DNA from: Dehalogenimonas formicexedens
GTDB lineage: Bacteria > Chloroflexota > Dehalococcoidia > Dehalococcoidales > Dehalococcoidaceae
Assembly (NCBI RefSeq): GCF_001953175.1
Contig: NZ_CP018258.1
Location: 1,268,210 to 1,332,209 of the forward strand
Direction: 5' to 3'
Length of the DNA: 64,000 bases
Part shown: piece after piece, positions 29,335 through 53,040 of the stretch
Layout: each line of letters starts with the position of its first letter
Numbering within the stretch: position 1 is the stretch's first letter
Translations under genes and position numbers: made by a program
The notes under the pieces: generated by a model
What the model saw: only the letters and a program-made list of their open reading frames with translations
Database searches by the model: none
What the model was told of the DNA's origin: nothing

Positions 29335-29381
29335 ATGATAAACCATGGATGGTTTGATGTAAATAAGCATTTATGCGTATT
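29335..29381 (-). promoter_or_regulatory. Orphan rdhA promoter with palindromic site D
   Basis: Minus strand: TTTACA (29363-29358), 17-bp spacer, TATCAT (29340-29335). The 20-bp palindrome AATAAGCATTTATGCGTATT (29362-29381) overlaps the -35 by 2 bp. A smaller inverted repeat AAACCATGGATGGTTT lies in the spacer. The leader would be about 45 nt with AAAGGGG as ribosome-binding site. Confidence 0.7.
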
Positions 29382-29467
29382 TTTCGTTAACGTGTGGTTA
29401 ATATGGTGAGGTCATGAATCGTATCTACCGGAACTTTCTATAACCTCATTACCCACTCGGGTAAATT

Positions 29468-45579: not shown

Positions 45580-47064
45580 TCAAGGAGAGCACTTCGGCTT
45601 CAGAGACGCGGCTTCAACCGTCGACGGCTTGCTGTTAAACACACCGGCATACTGCTCTTTTCTGATCTTCTGAAGTTTATTCATATGCAGGTGGTATTTC
45701 AGGAGTTCCTTCATCTCCCGGTAGAGCCTGGCCGGGTTGGTGAAGGCCAGCAGGAAGTAAGCCGGGTTATGGCGGACGGTAAACATGAAGCGGACTTTTG
45801 CGTAGGTGTGGTTGAAATGGGCGACGTATTCGTCGATCATCTCCTGGGGTACCTGGGAAAGGTTGATCTTGTGGCCATGGGAAACGATGAATTCCGGCCA
45901 CTCCTCCAGGGTCTGCGGGGCCTTGATCAGGTTATGGTCGACGCAGTAGTTGTAGAGTACGCTTCCCGGGATGGGGATAAAACGTGAGAGGAGATAGGCA
46001 GGATTATCCAGCCGGTCAAGCAACGCCCTGGTCGATTTCATATCCTCAGTGGTTTCAGTCGGGAAGCCGTAGATCAAATAAATCACGATCCTGATCTTGT
46101 GCTTGGTGAGAAGCCAGAAGGTTTTCTCCATTTGCTCAAGGGAAATGCCCTTCTGGATGAAGTCAAGCATCCTCTGGGAGCCGGTCTCGGGTCCCAGTCC
46201 CATAGCGACGCAGCCCGCTTTTTTCATCAGGATGATATCGGCTTCGGAAAGGTCGGCCCGGCTCTCGCAGGCCCACTTCACCTTGTTCTTGCGCTCGATA
46301 AGGATCTTGCACACCTGGCGGAGCCTCTTCCTGTTAAAGGCGAAGTTGTCCTCGTTGAACCTTACAAATTTGGCTTTGTAGAGCTTCTGCACCCTCTCCA
46401 GTTGCTCGACGACCCTCTCCGCCGAAAGCTCGGAGGCGTAGCCGCGGTCGAAAGCGGAGTGGTAGCAGTAGGCGCACTTGTAGGCGCAGCCTCTTGAGGT
46501 TGAAAGCCCTATTTCCGAGTATCTCTCCATTTTCACCAGGTGCCAGGCTGGATCCGGAAGCTCGTCTAGGTTCTTGATAAATGGACGCCTCTCATTGATG
46601 ACCGGCCTGCCGTCCACCTTGTAGCCCAGGCCTCTTATCTCAGACAGAGAAGGTGTCCCCGTCTCAAGATGAGTCACCAGATCAAGCATGGCATACTCCC
46701 CGGCACCCATGACGACAAAGTCCACGTACGGCTCAATGACGCACTGGGCAGGGAGGACGGTGGGCTGCAGGTTCCCCCAGACGATTTTCACATCAGGCAG
46801 CAGTTCTTTGAACTGTTTGGACTGTAAGATCGAGCCTTCAAGATAAGGACCGGCGATGACCGAGAAGCCGATTAAAGCGGGCTTCCACTCGACAAAATCC
46901 TCAGGCTTCCTCTCATCCACAAAACCATCGTAGATCTGCACCTCATGTCCCGCCCGCTCCAAAGTGGCAGCAATATAAAAAAGGCCGTTGGCCATGGTGC
47001 ACCTGGCTTTATTGTAATAAGCCTGGTAAGTCGGCGAGGCGGCGTTGACCAGTAGGACTTTCAT
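45580..47064 (-). CDS. B12-binding radical SAM protein (paralogue 1)
   Basis: 494 aa. N-terminal cobalamin-binding domain (MKVLLVNAASPTYQAYYNKA, ANGLFYIAATLERAGHEVQI, YVDFVVMGAGEYAML) and a radical SAM domain with CxxxCxxC in STSRGCAYKCAYC, plus GLGPETGSQRMLDFIQKGIS and YLIYGFPTET. Such enzymes methylate unreactive carbon or phosphorus, or rearrange rings. ATG at 47064 with GGAGCAGGA upstream; the longer frame has no site. Last gene of the rdhA3 operon. Confidence 0.9.
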   Translation of the reverse strand: MKVLLVNAASPTYQAYYNKARCTMANGLFYIAATLERAGHEVQIYDGFVDERKPEDFVEWKPALIGFSVIAGPYLEGSILQSKQFKELLPDVKIVWGNLQPTVLPAQCVIEPYVDFVVMGAGEYAMLDLVTHLETGTPSLSEIRGLGYKVDGRPVINERRPFIKNLDELPDPAWHLVKMERYSEIGLSTSRGCAYKCAYCYHSAFDRGYASELSAERVVEQLERVQKLYKAKFVRFNEDNFAFNRKRLRQVCKILIERKNKVKWACESRADLSEADIILMKKAGCVAMGLGPETGSQRMLDFIQKGISLEQMEKTFWLLTKHKIRIVIYLIYGFPTETTEDMKSTRALLDRLDNPAYLLSRFIPIPGSVLYNYCVDHNLIKAPQTLEEWPEFIVSHGHKINLSQVPQEMIDEYVAHFNHTYAKVRFMFTVRHNPAYFLLAFTNPARLYREMKELLKYHLHMNKLQKIRKEQYAGVFNSKPSTVEAASLKPKCSP

Positions 47065-47086
47065 GAATTTTATCCTGCTCCAATTT

Positions 47087-47105
47087 GGGCACGGCATGCC
47101 GTACC
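47087..47105. repeat. GGGCACGGCATGCCGTACC palindromic element inside the operon
   Basis: Nearly identical to the 20-bp palindrome at 18953-18972 (GGGCACGGCATGCCGTGCCC) and also followed by (C/G)CTAC. It fills the gap between two radical SAM genes and would fold in the message. Confidence 0.6.
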
Positions 47106-47106
47106 G

Positions 47107-48585
47107 CTACAGGGACCTCCTTGAAGTGGCCGCGGCGGTGACAAGCGACCGGTCTTTGGATTCACCATCAAGTTTCTTCTTGACCACTTTGTAAAAGCCA
47201 TTGACCTGGGTGTGGTATTTGATTAGTTCCCACAGTTCTCGGGTAAACTTCTTCGGGTCGGTAAAGGCGGTTAAGAAGTAAGAAGGATTGTGCTTTAAGG
47301 TGAAACGGATACGCTGCACCGCATAAGTCGCCCTCCAGTGAGCGGCGACTTCGCTCATCATCGCCTCAGGAACTTCACTGATGTTAATCTCGTTGGAGAA
47401 TCTCATAAGATAGTCCGGCCAGCCTTCGAGCTTCTCCGGCAGTTCCACCAGGCCATGCTTCACGCAGTAGTCAAAAAGTACGCTTCCGGGAAAAGGGACA
47501 AAGCGGTTGTACATGTAATAGGGATCGTCCAAGTGTTTCAGCATATTCTGAGTCGCTTTGAAATCCGCCCCCGTCTCGGTGGGGAAGCCGTACATGATAT
47601 AGACCGAAGTGCGGATCCCGGCTCTGACCATACCCCAGAAGGTCTTTTCCATTTCAAGTACGGTAATGTCCTTCTGAATGAAATCAAGCATCCTCTGGGA
47701 GCCGGTCTCAAGACCGAGGCCCACAGCGACACAGCCCGCTTTCTTCATCAGGGCGATATCAGCGTCGCTAAGGTCAGCCCTTGAATCGCAGCTCCAGGTG
47801 ATTTTCACCTTGCGCTCGATCAAAAGTCTGCAGAGCTCGCGAAGTCTCTTTCTATTGAAGGTGAAATTATCTTCATTGAAGCGGATGTATTTGGCGCCGT
47901 ACCTCTCTTTGAGGTGTTTCACCTGGGAGATGATCCTCTCGGCACCCAGGAAGCCGACGTAACCCTTGTTGTAGGTCTTGTTGTAGCAGAAGGCGCAGTG
48001 ATGGGCGCAGCCCCGAGAAGTGTTCAGGCCTATGACCGAATACTTCTTGACGTCAACCAGGTGCCACGCCGGATCGGGCATGGACTCAAGGTCCTTGATG
48101 AACTCGCGGCGCTCATTGACGACGACATTCCCATCGCGCCTGAAGGCCAGCCCCTTTATCGAGTCGAGCGAGGAGGTACCAATTCTCAAATGATCAAGTA
48201 GTTCCAATAGGGTGAACTCACCGGCGCCGATAACGACGAAATCGATAGAACCTTCAGCGAGGGTCTGCTCTGGCATTATGGACGGATGAACGTTGCCCCA
48301 GGCGATTTTAGCGTCAGGCAGCAGTGATTTGAATTCCCTGGACTGGGCCACCGAACCCTCAAGGTTGGGGCCGGTGATGACCGAGAAACCGATGAGGTCG
48401 GGATTAAAGGAAACGAAATCTTTTGGTTCTCTCCCGTCCACAAAGCCATCATAGATCTGAACTTCGTGGCCGGCATTCTCCAATGCTGAGGCGATATAGA
48501 GAAGCCCGTTAGGCAGGTTAGTGTAAGCCTGCGAGTAGTACTGCTTGTAGGCCGGGGTAGCCGAGGTGACTAGCAGAACTTTCAC
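47107..48585 (-). CDS. B12-binding radical SAM protein (paralogue 2)
   Basis: 492 aa, same architecture as its neighbours: cobalamin domain (NLPNGLLYIASALENAGHEV, IDFVVIGAGEFTLLELL), radical SAM motif RGCAHHCAFC, GLGLETGSQRMLDFIQKDIT and YIMYGFPTETG. The GTG start overlaps the stop of paralogue 3 (GTGA), so the two are translationally coupled. Divergence at the C-terminus (after about 440) suggests different substrates or partners. Confidence 0.9.
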   Translation of the reverse strand: MKVLLVTSATPAYKQYYSQAYTNLPNGLLYIASALENAGHEVQIYDGFVDGREPKDFVSFNPDLIGFSVITGPNLEGSVAQSREFKSLLPDAKIAWGNVHPSIMPEQTLAEGSIDFVVIGAGEFTLLELLDHLRIGTSSLDSIKGLAFRRDGNVVVNERREFIKDLESMPDPAWHLVDVKKYSVIGLNTSRGCAHHCAFCYNKTYNKGYVGFLGAERIISQVKHLKERYGAKYIRFNEDNFTFNRKRLRELCRLLIERKVKITWSCDSRADLSDADIALMKKAGCVAVGLGLETGSQRMLDFIQKDITVLEMEKTFWGMVRAGIRTSVYIMYGFPTETGADFKATQNMLKHLDDPYYMYNRFVPFPGSVLFDYCVKHGLVELPEKLEGWPDYLMRFSNEINISEVPEAMMSEVAAHWRATYAVQRIRFTLKHNPSYFLTAFTDPKKFTRELWELIKYHTQVNGFYKVVKKKLDGESKDRSLVTAAATSRRSL

Positions 48586-50054
48586 GAAATGGTGACCTCC
48601 TTGGCTAAACGAGAGCTTTGATTAGGACTCAAGTTCCTTTGGTGCATTACCGATTCATTGAAACGATTCAATTGAAAATATCTGCGGAGTAACCCGGCTA
48701 ATTCACGGGAGAACTTGACCGGGTTAGCCACCATCCGCCAGAACTCCACTGGATAGTGTTTCATGGTGAATATGAAACGGTCCTTGGCGTAGTTATGGCG
48801 CCACCTGGCGGCAGTTTCGGCGATCATATTGTCGGGGACCTGACTGAGGTTGATTCGATGTCCGTGAGCAGTGAGGAAATCCGGCCAATCTCCTAGTTTC
48901 TCAGGAAAAACAACCAGTTTGTGCGAAACACAATAGTCTGATAGTGCACTTCCCGGGAACGGGACAAACCTACTAAATAGATGGGGCGGGTTATCCATAC
49001 GCTTTAATAATTCCTGCGTAGCCTGAAAATCGGCCACAGTTTCAGTCGGGAAGCCATACATGATGTAAACAAGGGTGTGGATTCTATGTTTCACCAATAA
49101 GGCGACAGTTCGCTCCATGTCCGCCAGGGTGATGCCTTTGTGCAAGAAATCCAACATTCGCTGTGAACCGGTTTCCAAGCCAAACCTGATGGTGACGCAA
49201 CCTGCTTTCGCCATGAGGGCAATATCGGCTTCCGAGAGATCCGCCCGAGAATCGCAACTCCATTTGACCTTGATTTTGCGTTCAATCATCAAGCGGCAGA
49301 ATTCACGCAACCTTTTACGATTAAAAGTGAAATTATCTTCGTTGAAAAAGCTGACGAACCTGGCGCCATATTGGGAGTGGACATATTCAATCTGTAAAAT
49401 CACCCGCTCTGCTGAGAACTCAGCGGTGTAACCCTTTGAAAGCGAGGAATGGTAACAGTAAGCACACTGGAAAGCGCACCCACGGCTGGTGGTCAGGCCA
49501 ATCTCGGTGTACTTTTTCATGTCCACTAGATGCCAAGCTGGATCAGGCAGATCATCGAGATTTTTGATAAAAGGTCGGCGTTCGTTCAATACCGCATTGC
49601 CATCCAGCTTATAGCCAAGACCCTTGATATCCGAAAGCTCAATAGAGCCTGTTTCGAAACTGGCAGCCAATTCAACCATGGTAAACTCGCCGGCACCGAT
49701 CACAACAAAGTCGACGTAGGGTTCAGCGAGCACCTGCTCGGGGATAGCGCTCGGGGTAACATTTCCCCACACGATTGCGCAATCCGGCAGAAGTTCTTTA
49801 AACCTAGCTGACTGTGCCATCGCGGCTTCCATGTACGGACCACCGATGACCGAAAATCCGATGATCCTTGGCTGCCAGTCAACGAAATCTTCCGGTCGAC
49901 GACCGTCGATGAAACCATCGCAAACGCGCACCTCGTGGCCAGCTTTCTCTAGAACTGAGGCAATATACAAAATACCATTGGGCAACGTTGTATATGCTTT
50001 TTTGTAAGGCTCGTTGTCGGGCTGTGGCTTGGCGTTTATGAGTAATATTTTCAT
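48582..50054 (-). CDS. B12-binding radical SAM protein (paralogue 3)
   Basis: 490 aa: cobalamin-binding part (MKILLINAKPQPDNEPYKKA, LPNGILYIASVLEKAGHEV, YVDFVVIGAGEFTMVELA), radical SAM motif RGCAFQCAYC, then RFGLETGSQRMLDFLHKGIT and YIMYGFPTETV. The ATG at 50054 is chosen by alignment with the paralogues; the open frame runs 83 codons upstream into the hairpin and rdhA. First of three tandem copies directly after rdhA3. Confidence 0.88.
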   Translation of the reverse strand: MKILLINAKPQPDNEPYKKAYTTLPNGILYIASVLEKAGHEVRVCDGFIDGRRPEDFVDWQPRIIGFSVIGGPYMEAAMAQSARFKELLPDCAIVWGNVTPSAIPEQVLAEPYVDFVVIGAGEFTMVELAASFETGSIELSDIKGLGYKLDGNAVLNERRPFIKNLDDLPDPAWHLVDMKKYTEIGLTTSRGCAFQCAYCYHSSLSKGYTAEFSAERVILQIEYVHSQYGARFVSFFNEDNFTFNRKRLREFCRLMIERKIKVKWSCDSRADLSEADIALMAKAGCVTIRFGLETGSQRMLDFLHKGITLADMERTVALLVKHRIHTLVYIMYGFPTETVADFQATQELLKRMDNPPHLFSRFVPFPGSALSDYCVSHKLVVFPEKLGDWPDFLTAHGHRINLSQVPDNMIAETAARWRHNYAKDRFIFTMKHYPVEFWRMVANPVKFSRELAGLLRRYFQLNRFNESVMHQRNLSPNQSSRLAKEVTIS

Positions 50055-50087
50055 CGTGACTGGTGATCCTAATTTTATTCCTAGGTA

Positions 50088-50119
50088 GGCTCCTCGACAG
50101 GTTGTCCTGTCGAGGAGCC
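50088..50119 (-). other. Stable hairpin between rdhA3 and the B12 radical SAM genes
   Basis: GGCTCCTCGACAGG (50088-50101) and CCTGTCGAGGAGCC (50106-50119): 14-bp perfect stem, 4-nt loop. There is no T-run after it on the minus strand, so it is more likely an mRNA stabiliser, processing site or partial terminator that sets rdhA above the downstream genes. Confidence 0.65.
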
Positions 50120-50130
50120 CCTCAAAAGGA

Positions 50131-51699
50131 CTATAGGAAAGGAGGACCTTCCCACTTGTTGTAACCACCGTCGTAGGCGCAGACGGTAGAGTCATGGCCC
50201 AGAACGGGTAATTGCAACTCGAAGAAGTTATTGACCTGGTCCACGTCGGTCCGCGGCCAGCAACCATAGCCGAAGAGATCGCCAAGCTTGTAAGCCTGGC
50301 CATTCAAGGCGCTAAAGTTAGAGATTACCGCCCTGATGACCTGATGGACCATAGCGCCGCGGTTGGTGGTGAAGGTGCATTCACCCCAGCACACGAGACA
50401 GCGGCCGGTCTCGGCGTTAAACTGACGGCAAAGCGGACTATCAGACAGGAAGCATTTAGTGCCATCAACCGCCCAGCGCGCTGTCTTGCCGGCATAATCG
50501 GGAACAGAAGCAGGATCACGGGCGCCGGCGTTAGCTGCATCGCGGTCATATGACGGCTCTTTGTTCTGAGAGATGGTCTGCGGCGGGCAATGATCGGCGC
50601 ATTTGTGGCAGGCGTGACAGAAGCGCCACAGGCCAGCGTCGATTGGCTTGCTGGGTTCGAGAGGCAGATCGGTGGCGATGGTGTAAAGCCGTCCGGGGGC
50701 ACCTTTTTCCGGGGTCAAAGTGTACAATTGCTGGCGTGAAGCCTCACCGAGACCAGAAAGGATGGCGGCGCCACCCTCAGATCCGAGATAGGTTGAATCA
50801 TTGCCAATGATGCCTATCTGGAAATAACCGAGATAGCGCAGGAAGCTGTAGGTGGAGGCATGGCAGTTAGCTGTGTTGTTGAAAGTGTTGGCATTGGCCA
50901 GGCTTCCAATAGGAGTCGGAGCCATGCGCCACAGTTCGTTGGCGCCTCCCATAGTAAGACTGATTTCAGAAAGCTGGATCTGGTCGGGAATCACGAGCTT
51001 GGTAGTGGTGGAATACGGCGCCGGTACATTTTCGAAGACGATCGGTCGGGCAGCGGTATCTGGCGGAGGCCATGCATCAATGTACTGATCGCCGTTTGCT
51101 TTATCTGAATTCTTGAAAATCACGTGGTCTTTTTCGTTCTGGGTCATCTCAAACGGGAAAACCAGTTCCGCACCGAAAACGCGCATGGCCATCCGAAGCA
51201 TTGCGGTCGCTTCTTCAGGAGTACCGGTCCATTTAACATCACCACGTTCTGAAGGGCTCTTTGATGGCGTTGGGACTGTGGCTTCCGACCAAGTAGGGTT
51301 GGCCGAAGGGGCAACCCTTTTATAGGCGTTTTGCAATGCCTGGAAACGAGTATCCCAGCCGGGTTTGCCGGCAGCAATCTGAGCCTTTTCATAGGCGGCT
51401 CCGGTGGTAGAAGTAGCCAATACGCGTTCTTTGCCCAGGTAGTAGGCGCGCATGTAGGAGGATTGTCCCTGCAGGGTGGAATCATGCCGGGTCATCATTG
51501 TGTAGTCGATGTCGATAGTCGGTTTATCGACTTCCTTGACCCACCATGGTCGCTTGGCCTGGGCGACTCCCGATGAAATGAGTTCGTCGAGATCGTGGAA
51601 AACAGGCCGGACAAGGGATGCGACGCCGACACCGGCGCCGCCCAAGCCGAGGGCTTTCATGAACTGCCGCCGGCTTACCGTGCTGTGAAACATTGACAT
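50131..51699 (-). CDS. rdhA: Reductive dehalogenase catalytic subunit RdhA (copy 3, in radical SAM operon)
   Basis: 522 aa, the longest of the three. Tat signal SRRQFMK at residues 9-15. First cluster motif FCHACHKCADHCPP (CX2CX2CX3CP); second CX9CX2CX3C ending GRCLVCWGECTF. Extra sequence in the middle (about 110-160) relative to the others. No rdhB gene adjoins it; instead it stands between an upstream radical SAM gene (97-bp gap) and three B12-binding radical SAM genes, all in one direction. Confidence 0.94.
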   Translation of the reverse strand: MSMFHSTVSRRQFMKALGLGGAGVGVASLVRPVFHDLDELISSGVAQAKRPWWVKEVDKPTIDIDYTMMTRHDSTLQGQSSYMRAYYLGKERVLATSTTGAAYEKAQIAAGKPGWDTRFQALQNAYKRVAPSANPTWSEATVPTPSKSPSERGDVKWTGTPEEATAMLRMAMRVFGAELVFPFEMTQNEKDHVIFKNSDKANGDQYIDAWPPPDTAARPIVFENVPAPYSTTTKLVIPDQIQLSEISLTMGGANELWRMAPTPIGSLANANTFNNTANCHASTYSFLRYLGYFQIGIIGNDSTYLGSEGGAAILSGLGEASRQQLYTLTPEKGAPGRLYTIATDLPLEPSKPIDAGLWRFCHACHKCADHCPPQTISQNKEPSYDRDAANAGARDPASVPDYAGKTARWAVDGTKCFLSDSPLCRQFNAETGRCLVCWGECTFTTNRGAMVHQVIRAVISNFSALNGQAYKLGDLFGYGCWPRTDVDQVNNFFELQLPVLGHDSTVCAYDGGYNKWEGPPFL

Positions 51700-51796
51700 T
51701 GTGTTCGTCTCCTTTCGGTTTTGATATCCGTGTTAACGCCATCCGGTCTTTCCCGGAAGCCAAAAACCATTGCAATCCTCCCAGTTATTCTCAGAG

Positions 51797-52609
51797 CTAA
51801 ACCAGGACTGGCATCCTTACGAGATCGACGCTCGGCTGTTCGGCGAAATCCAATTCGGCTTCAGTTGGGAAAACGCTTCTGACACTGAACTCCCTCGGTT
51901 CTTCCCGTAGAAAGTGAACATTCTTGAGATACTTGCCAGCAGCCAAAGCCGCTTTCTCGACGTTTTCGACCGTGGCTCGGGGCCAGGGATTATCAGCTAC
52001 CTTTGAATAAGCATCGAGGTGATACAACATACCCGGATCAACTGAGGCTATAAACCGGGCTAGATTGGCGACCTCATCGGCGTCGACGTACCCGGGGATA
52101 ACGACGGTTTCAGCTAGCATCGGGACTCCCGAATCATAGATTCTCTTAAAATTGCGAAGGATGACACGATTGGATTGGCCGGTATACTCCAGGTGGAGAT
52201 TTTCATCGAAAGCCTTCAAACTGAAGGCAACTTTGTCGATATGAGCAAGGTCCGGCATATTGAGGCCGTTGGTAAGAAGAATATTGGAAGTAGAAAGTTT
52301 TTGATGCAGTGTCCTAGCAATCAAAGGCATGGTTGGATCAAGAGAGGCTTCCTGGCCTTCGAAGAGGACCGACGTGGCTCCGAGGCCGACCAGGGCATCA
52401 ATAACCCCGTCAAAATCGAGGTACCGGTTTGGCATCGAAGCTTCTCCATTTGGTTCAGCCAGATACAGATGCATGTTCCGATCCAGCATGGAATCGAATG
52501 GAATTTTCCGGAGGATGCAACCCCGGCAGGTCAGGTTACAATCGCGAAAATGGAGATACGCCTGCTTGATGGAATCGGCAAAGGCGATATTGTAAACCCT
52601 AGTCTGCAT
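51797..52609 (-). CDS. Radical SAM protein upstream of rdhA3
   Basis: 270 aa. Radical SAM motif CNLTCRGC (Cys24, Cys28, Cys31), then ATSVLFEGQEASLDPTMPLI and ILLTNGLN, KVAFSLKAFDENLHLEYTG and LAETVVIPGYVDADEVANLARFIASVDPG. This resembles activating-enzyme/AmmeMemoRadiSam-type proteins with a short barrel and no SPASM or B12 domain. Target unknown. GTGAGGAG before the ATG. First gene of the operon, after a leader of about 165 nt. Confidence 0.85.
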   Translation of the reverse strand: MQTRVYNIAFADSIKQAYLHFRDCNLTCRGCILRKIPFDSMLDRNMHLYLAEPNGEASMPNRYLDFDGVIDALVGLGATSVLFEGQEASLDPTMPLIARTLHQKLSTSNILLTNGLNMPDLAHIDKVAFSLKAFDENLHLEYTGQSNRVILRNFKRIYDSGVPMLAETVVIPGYVDADEVANLARFIASVDPGMLYHLDAYSKVADNPWPRATVENVEKAALAAGKYLKNVHFLREEPREFSVRSVFPTEAELDFAEQPSVDLVRMPVLV

Positions 52610-52703
52610 CTTCTCCTCACGTTTTTATAAATTCGCCAGGCTTCGCGGATGAAACTCAACCATGTGGGCACAGTCCCTGGGGAGAATTTCACAATGCTTT
52701 AAG

Positions 52704-52726
52704 CCGGACCCGCGTTCACAGTCCGG
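52704..52726 (-). other. Hairpin in the long 5' leader of the radical SAM-rdhA3 operon
   Basis: CCGGAC (52704-52709) and GTCCGG (52721-52726) close an 11-nt loop. The leader from the inferred start near 52777 to the ATG at 52609 is about 165 nt and G+C-structured, long enough for an RNA regulator, but no known riboswitch consensus was recognised. Confidence 0.4.
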
Positions 52727-52783
52727 ACACCCTTTCCTTCTGTCCTCTCGCTAGTACGGTGCTACTCAGCGTCCAGCAATCTG

Positions 52784-52830
52784 ATTTTAATTCTTATCAA
52801 AGGGATGAAAAATACGTACTGTTACTTATT
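52784..52830 (-). promoter_or_regulatory. Radical SAM-rdhA3 operon promoter with palindromic site B
   Basis: Minus strand: TTTTTC (52812-52807), 17-bp spacer, TAAAAT (52789-52784). The palindrome AATACGTACTGTTACTTATT (52811-52830) overlaps the poor -35 by 2 bp, the same geometry as sites A and D. The rest of 52831-53040 has no gene that I can support. Confidence 0.65.
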
Positions 52831-53040
52831 TTTTACACGAACGGTACTGATTCTCTCTCATTCAGCCTTTAAGGCATGCACACCACTCAAAATTTACCGC
52901 CCGGATGTGGTTTAAGGTAGATCAATTCCGATACACAAGCTGGAGGACGGTGCCTGGCTGTGCATGATTCACCGTAGGTTTGTTCTTTGTGGAACGTCAG
53001 ATATACAATAACCAAGTCCGTATTCACCGGAGGGAATTGG

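Follow-up and report, generated by a model that had tools for sequence, protein, structure and literature searches.

Radical SAM genes around a reductive dehalogenase gene in Dehalogenimonas formicexedens and their possible role in corrinoid tailoring or salvage

The five-gene block and its reductive dehalogenase

The stretch of DNA analyzed here (the window) comprises 64,000 nucleotides of the complete, 2,092,789-bp genome of Dehalogenimonas formicexedens and includes a block of five genes, all on the minus strand, in which a reductive dehalogenase gene (rdhA) is combined with four genes for radical S-adenosylmethionine (SAM) proteins. The block starts with the gene for a short radical SAM protein, denoted srS (51797..52609, 270 aa, CxxxCxxC motif), followed by rdhA (50131..51699, 522 aa) and by three genes for B12-binding radical SAM proteins, denoted B12-rSAM (paralogue 1, 48582..50054, 490 aa; paralogue 2, 47107..48585, 492 aa, with a GTG start; paralogue 3, 45580..~47064, ~494 aa). 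The five genes, their order and their single direction had been described previously in a sequence-only reading, and this description agrees with the open reading frame coordinates and the Pfam assignments: Radical_SAM alone for srS, Dehalogenase and a twin-arginine translocation (Tat) signal for RdhA, and Radical_SAM together with B12-binding for each of the three large proteins. The absence of rdhB, also claimed in that reading, was corroborated by a search of the block with the RdhB profile, which gave no match; such an arrangement is ordinary for the genus because Dehalogenimonas genomes contain 3-6 rdhB genes and a far larger set of rdhA (PMC13390414). The reported close spacing of the B12-rSAM genes holds for the last two junctions (a 4-bp overlap ahead of paralogue 2, then about 40 bp), whereas the start of the first gene had to be corrected to 50054, with a hairpin preceding it; the 573-aa reading of this frame is an artefact that overlaps rdhA.

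The RdhA of the block scores well above the cut-offs of the dehalogenase models (TIGR02486, 230.6 vs 160.35 bits; PF13486, 133 vs 24.3 bits), matches the TAT model above the NCBIfam cut-off and carries the eight invariant cysteines of the 4Fe-4S clusters (C361/364/367/371 and C424/434/437/441). As regards the catalytic pair Tyr246 and Arg305 (PceA numbering), the equivalent of Arg305 is retained and the Tyr is replaced, Phe273 being aligned with Tyr246 with gapless spacing to the LGY motif. Both residues have been termed essential and highly conserved, and yet the residue aligned with the Tyr varies in the chloroalkane reductases CfrA and DcrA (PMC11921367, PMC5500849). Given that these working enzymes differ at this position, the window RdhA may still catalyze dehalogenation, and we did not adopt the view that an RdhA without the catalytic Tyr is no dehalogenase, because of CfrA and DcrA (PMC11921367) and also because Tyr-less members of the same clade exist that have no radical SAM neighbours.

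The window RdhA groups in a clade of Tyr-less RdhAs that is uncharacterised and common to Dehalogenimonas and Dehalococcoides. A scan of 11 genomes and additional loci with the RdhA profile placed 16 of 44 Tyr-less RdhAs near radical SAM genes compared with 8 of 72 Tyr-bearing ones (Fisher p = 0.002), among rows that are related and with some selection bias remaining; in the D. formicexedens genome alone, the respective numbers are 3 of 6 and 1 of 18 (p = 0.035). The first version of this comparison was biased, with loci picked around radical SAM genes, and the wider repeat weakened the association. The adjacency of Tyr-less RdhAs and radical SAM genes is treated here as a lead only.

Distribution and gene context of the two radical SAM families

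The D. formicexedens genome encodes 10 members of the B12-rSAM family and 11 members of the srS family, which form 10 loci; the three B12-rSAM proteins of the block share 55-56% identity with one another. An rdhA gene is located within 5 kb of 6 of these 10 loci, compared with 1.1 expected under random placement (p = 0.00015). The association of rdhA with radical SAM genes, which the sequence-only reading had drawn from a single block, is accordingly recurrent and above chance, and it is seen again at a number of loci, some of them in other genera (L050, L051, L061, L065, L072, L078, L084, L126 and L181; here and below, loci are given L and genomes G numbers). The block, for which a synteny comparison had been proposed, is kept in the sister genome G197 as srS-rdhA-B12-B12, the genes being 82, 80, 90 and 94% identical to those of the window and paralogue 1 missing. 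The order srS-rdhA-B12 is retained in L125 and in L126, the latter being a second G197 locus. The arrangement srS-B12-B12-B12 without an intact rdhA inside is found in L053, L058 and L183 (genomes G083, G189 and G197). In the triples of L053 and L058, the middle gene is the ortholog of the second B12-rSAM gene of the window; orthology of the whole triples was rejected, this being the sole clear ortholog. Because the syntenic block of the sister genome contains two B12-rSAM genes and the other triples share one clear ortholog with that of the window, the triple, for which the sequence-only reading had suggested sequential or substrate-specific steps, does not represent a fixed pathway of three steps. 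The modules are reshuffled, and rdhA is a frequent but not an obligatory part of them.

Among 197 Dehalococcoidia genomes, the B12-rSAM family is present only in the 7 Dehalogenimonas, and srS is present in 7 Dehalogenimonas, 3 Dehalococcoides, G113, G035 and G138; a draw of 400 genomes from the phylum added srS in G517, G516 and the further Dehalogenimonas G197. One scan of genome contigs returned a single near relative of the B12-rSAM family. In a Chloroflexi metagenome-assembled genome from termite gut, DUF71, srS and B12-rSAM genes are consecutive, and at least 9 rdhA genes are located elsewhere in the same genome.

The common denominator of the contexts in which both families occur is corrinoid. 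In three Chloroflexota genomes that are far from Dehalogenimonas, srS lies between btuF and btuC in a btuF-srS-btuC-btuD arrangement (L087, L088 and, from the phylum-wide set, L180), and in L087 and L088 a cobalamin riboswitch is located directly upstream of this operon. The two genomes with the riboswitch (G035 and G138) encode srS and no rdhA above the cut-off. Within the genus, srS precedes btuFCD-cbiZ-cbiB (L052, L057, L064, L077 and L182), and in L049 and L081 (Dehalogenimonas and Dehalococcoides) a trio of srS genes is interspersed with DUF71, CbiE-like methyltransferase and CbiZ genes ahead of nrdJ-cobA-cbiB. The B12-rSAM genes show a similar tendency, with pairs followed by cbiZ in L035, L054, L062, L069 and L079, and single genes followed by cbiZ in L073 and L076. 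Both families, although not the window copies themselves, hold a conserved position in btu or cbi operons. DUF71-B12 proteins have been predicted to act in B12 salvage, and five were noted in Dehalococcoides CBDB1 (PMC3541065); in D. formicexedens NSZ-14, rdhA, cobamide salvage genes and ribonucleotide reductase are reported to be expanded (PMC13390414), in a text where the word 'radical' is not present. In the open-licence literature, we found no paper that links either family to corrinoid salvage.

Several further arrangements were observed in this part of the gene repertoire. A corrinoid-uptake segment is duplicated (L033:9108-9851 and L034:8432-9175), with identical srS followed by btuFCD, ~29 kb apart, each copy having a cobalamin riboswitch nearby. 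Five genes for class II ribonucleotide reductase-like proteins (~590 aa) are encoded in the 2.09-Mb D. formicexedens genome, several of them adjoining srS (L031:14996-16771, L025:11469-13250, L038:11652-13427, L040:6136-7899 and L036:137-1930). In L065:3337-19998, from another Dehalogenimonas, two rdhAB pairs run into six srS genes and genes for DUF71, CbiE-like methyltransferase, NrdJ, CbiB, CbiZ and BtuF.

We could find no characterised member of either radical SAM family. The structure model of srS (predicted local distance difference test score 83) has a radical SAM fold similar to that of the pyruvate formate-lyase (PFL) activase, with 3c8f as the best match (template modelling score 0.68, 18% identity). 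The B12-rSAM proteins combine an N-terminal B12-binding domain with a CxxxCxxC radical SAM core and thus belong to the class B (cobalamin-dependent) radical SAM proteins. The folds closest to their structure model are OxsB, AprD4, MgmA and TsrM, with 14-20% identity to the solved structures, and the nearest curated families by profile are BchE, HpnJ, PhpK and lipid B12-rSAM enzymes, all with scores far below the cut-offs.

Leader RNA and other putative control elements

Comparison of the leaders revealed an element of ~128 nt upstream of srS in L125 and L053, and nhmmer searches placed this RNA upstream of srS, nrdJ, rdhA and B12-rSAM genes in Dehalogenimonas (for example, L125:8795-8924, L031:16803-16933, L036:1957-2085 and L040:10315-10442, all on the minus strand). 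A scan of the 197 Dehalococcoidia genomes that was unrestricted by gene yielded 22 matches (E<=2e-16), all in Dehalogenimonas; among the 21 examined, 11 precede nrdJ, 6 srS, 3 rdhA (one with an intervening short gene) and 1 a B12-rSAM gene. The structure consists of an outer stem, an inner stem, a hairpin and a possible pseudoknot, with 98.3% of cells paired. Two-sided changes occur in 8 pairs, whereas shuffles give 2.5, and the structure is lost when the partners are slid; in the pseudoknot helix, no two-sided change was seen. The window copy (52623..52745, minus strand) is located at the orthologous place, by positional homology to L125, and is strongly diverged (13 bits, not significant genome-wide); read by eye, its arms GTGAAATTC/GAGTTTCAT still pair where the family has GTGAAACCCC/GGGGTTCAC.

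The leader RNA did not match any family of Rfam 15, including RF00174 and RF01055, even with the E limit relaxed to 1, 5 or 10, whereas the controls were recognised (RF01055 in Escherichia coli moaA; RF00174 in L029, L033, L087 and L088). A cobalamin riboswitch in the window leader was rejected (no Rfam match at gathering or at E<=10), as was identity with the E. coli molybdenum cofactor riboswitch, the leader model having no match to the moaA leader. Weaker relatives of the leader (27-45 bits) were detected in G113, another member of Dehalococcoidales, upstream of molybdoenzyme and modBC genes; at L148:1501-1627 (plus strand), L158:1501-1622 (minus strand) and L164:1501-1620 (plus strand), they precede genes for molybdoenzymes of the xanthine-dehydrogenase type, with mocA/modBC-like genes alongside. 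Such a setting is at odds with a role of the RNA in corrinoid metabolism alone and is explained by no corrinoid hypothesis.

Two further elements lie within or ahead of the block. Between rdhA and the first B12-rSAM gene, just 3' of the rdhA stop, there is a hairpin with a perfect 14-bp stem (50088..50119, minus strand; -35.8 kcal/mol for the folded stretch, z -6.3), and because it intervenes between rdhA and the three genes that follow, a single transcript for the block is not a given. Perfect stems, 11-18 bp long, are also present 3' of most other rdhA genes without rdhB in the genome, similar stems occupy the same place in L125 and L126, and the bases 3' of these hairpins are mostly not a U-run. 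The hairpins look like 3' ends of rdhA, for which processing or stabilisation appears as likely as termination. In the promoter, the palindrome AAAAATACGTACTGTTACTTATTTTT (site B of the sequence-only reading; 26 bp, 52808..52833, minus strand) was recovered, with 0 expected in shuffles; it overlaps a weak -35-like hexamer and is a possible operator. It resembles, with mismatches, AAATACGCAT-NN-ATGCGTATTT palindromes located ~60-130 bp upstream of four other rdhA genes. The latter (window 29360-29385; L026:8893; L038:2086; L038:7720) represent a candidate common operator.

Possible roles and relation to known systems

Organohalide-respiring Dehalococcoidia rely on scavenged corrinoid, and the type of cobamide that an RdhA can use decides whether this RdhA works. 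From what was observed, namely which genes are present and linked in the genome, how far they are conserved and to which sequence and fold classes they belong, we infer substrate, reaction and co-regulation as follows. The srS and B12-rSAM families would tailor or salvage the corrinoid for RdhA and class II ribonucleotide reductase, a reading built on gene neighbourhoods to which we assign a probability of roughly 0.5, and the copies that adjoin a gene for one of these two enzymes would supply it with suitable cobamide. Under this scenario, corrinoid would be imported by the known BtuFCD system; CbiZ would cut the nucleotide loop or the aminopropanol amide, and CbiB, CobA and DUF71-B12, in their known or predicted roles, would rebuild the cofactor. 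The srS protein, as a canonical radical SAM enzyme, would form the 5'-deoxyadenosyl radical and act on the corrinoid or its precursor, and the B12-rSAM enzymes, themselves cobamide-binding, would methylate or oxidise that molecule further by radical chemistry. The resulting cobamide would then be loaded into the Tat-exported RdhA; loading of the cofactor prior to export is general for RdhA. Among the roles that the sequence-only reading had listed for the radical SAM proteins, tailoring of the corrinoid is the one best supported by genomic context, whereas the proposals that they modify the RdhA protein, a lipid or quinone partner or the dehalogenation product are unsupported because members of both families are found in operons for B12 uptake and salvage that contain no rdhA, and srS is also encoded in genomes that have no convincing rdhA.

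Several observations weigh against corrinoid tailoring. The B12-rSAM family was not found in the three Dehalococcoides genomes searched (E<=1e-90), although their RdhA also needs corrinoid. The rdhA-free triples of L053 and L058 imply that the set of radical SAM genes can do without an rdhA nearby, and the presence of five nrdJ-type genes in one genome makes an alternative tie to deoxynucleotide synthesis possible. Finally, genomic neighbourhood could mean merely shared corrinoid demand or control. A more ambitious version of the scenario, in which a hitherto unrecognised radical SAM pathway of Dehalococcoidales modifies the corrinoid of RdhA and class II ribonucleotide reductase, governed in Dehalogenimonas by a new riboswitch-like class of leader with a covarying outer stem upstream of nrdJ, srS, rdhA and B12-rSAM genes, with a molybdo-linked RNA relative in another lineage, is at present speculative and rather doubtful.

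Tentatively, the gene associations might instead reflect a corrinoid-responsive regulon of B12-dependent enzymes, in which the B12-rSAM proteins, with srS as a partner, are mere consumers of cobamide whose products, for instance a small metabolite or a membrane lipid, are unrelated; their clustering with rdhA and nrdJ would then stem from the shared need for the cofactor. Corrinoid is used by RdhA and NrdJ as well as by the B12-rSAM proteins, the same leader RNA is found ahead of each of these gene types, and the nearest curated profiles of the B12-rSAM proteins, distant as they are, include lipid enzymes. However, such a regulon leaves unexplained why srS, which has no B12-binding domain, is inserted between btuF and btuC in distant genomes, and why pairs of B12-rSAM genes lie directly upstream of cbiZ. 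Insertion by chance, in which a mobile rdhA landed between srS and B12-rSAM genes already in place and has no functional relation to them, appears improbable: the three triples without an intact rdhA and the poor conservation of gene order in Dehalogenimonas (PMC13390414) would fit this explanation, but the linkage to rdhA is repeated at several loci and in other genera, exceeds chance in the D. formicexedens genome itself, and the sister genome retains the order, with genes that are 80-94% identical. That the radical SAM enzymes modify the RdhA protein or its active site, for example by radical methylation or a crosslink, is very improbable: the operon-like srS-rdhA-B12-rSAM order in two species and the excess of Tyr-less RdhAs near radical SAM genes speak for it, but the latter comes from related rows and from sampling that favoured radical SAM neighbourhoods, many rdhA genes from that Tyr-less clade are not accompanied by radical SAM genes, and both families occur in B12 operons without rdhA, with srS present in G035 and G138 without a convincing rdhA.

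If the radical SAM enzymes indeed adjust the cofactor, as envisaged in the corrinoid tailoring scenario, they would represent a new step in cobamide metabolism and a part of B12 metabolism that has been overlooked in bioremediating bacteria, a possible reason why production of RdhA in other hosts is difficult, and a lever for bioremediation cultures. A leader RNA that senses corrinoid or another cofactor would constitute a new regulatory class, and the linkage itself yields gene markers for an uncharacterised RdhA clade common to Dehalogenimonas and Dehalococcoides.

Among the PFL activase (3c8f) and NifB/MoaA-type radical SAM enzymes, srS fits the PFL-activase fold best; unlike the activases, it has no glycyl radical enzyme partner in the genome, where PF01228 is absent, and it scores far below all activase cut-offs (best 42.6 vs 430 bits). 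A role of srS as a glycyl radical enzyme activase was rejected as unlikely because the genome has no glycyl radical enzyme. The best curated sequence match of the B12-rSAM proteins is BchE, and the best folds are those of other class B enzymes; membership in BchE was rejected by score (TIGR02026, 139-161 bits vs cut-off 481). BzaD, an enzyme of anaerobic lower-ligand synthesis, shares the B12-binding and radical SAM architecture and works on a part of the cobamide. However, the window paralogues score 99-106 bits against the BzaD cut-off of 450 (TIGR04385), and identity with BzaD is excluded because a genuine BzaD (623 bits) is encoded in a separate bza operon, at genome positions 408807-410135. 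This bza-type lower-ligand operon (L029:4190-10991) encodes CobT, BzaD, a second B12-rSAM protein and a ThiC/BzaB-like protein, with a cobalamin riboswitch ahead.

After the G197 protein, the nearest relatives of the window RdhA are Phe-type RdhAs found in all three Dehalococcoides genomes (55-56% identity). Unlike the window RdhA, these are accompanied by rdhB and have no radical SAM neighbour. The one in G098 is presumably DET1545, as suggested by gene order. DET1545 has been described as a widely conserved, expressed dehalogenase with an unknown substrate (PMC5874627). Another related system is the set of cobamide salvage and remodelling proteins (BtuFCD, CbiZ, CbiB, CobA and DUF71-B12). 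The papers found describe no radical SAM component for this set; srS and B12-rSAM genes occur in the same operons, twice behind cobalamin riboswitches.

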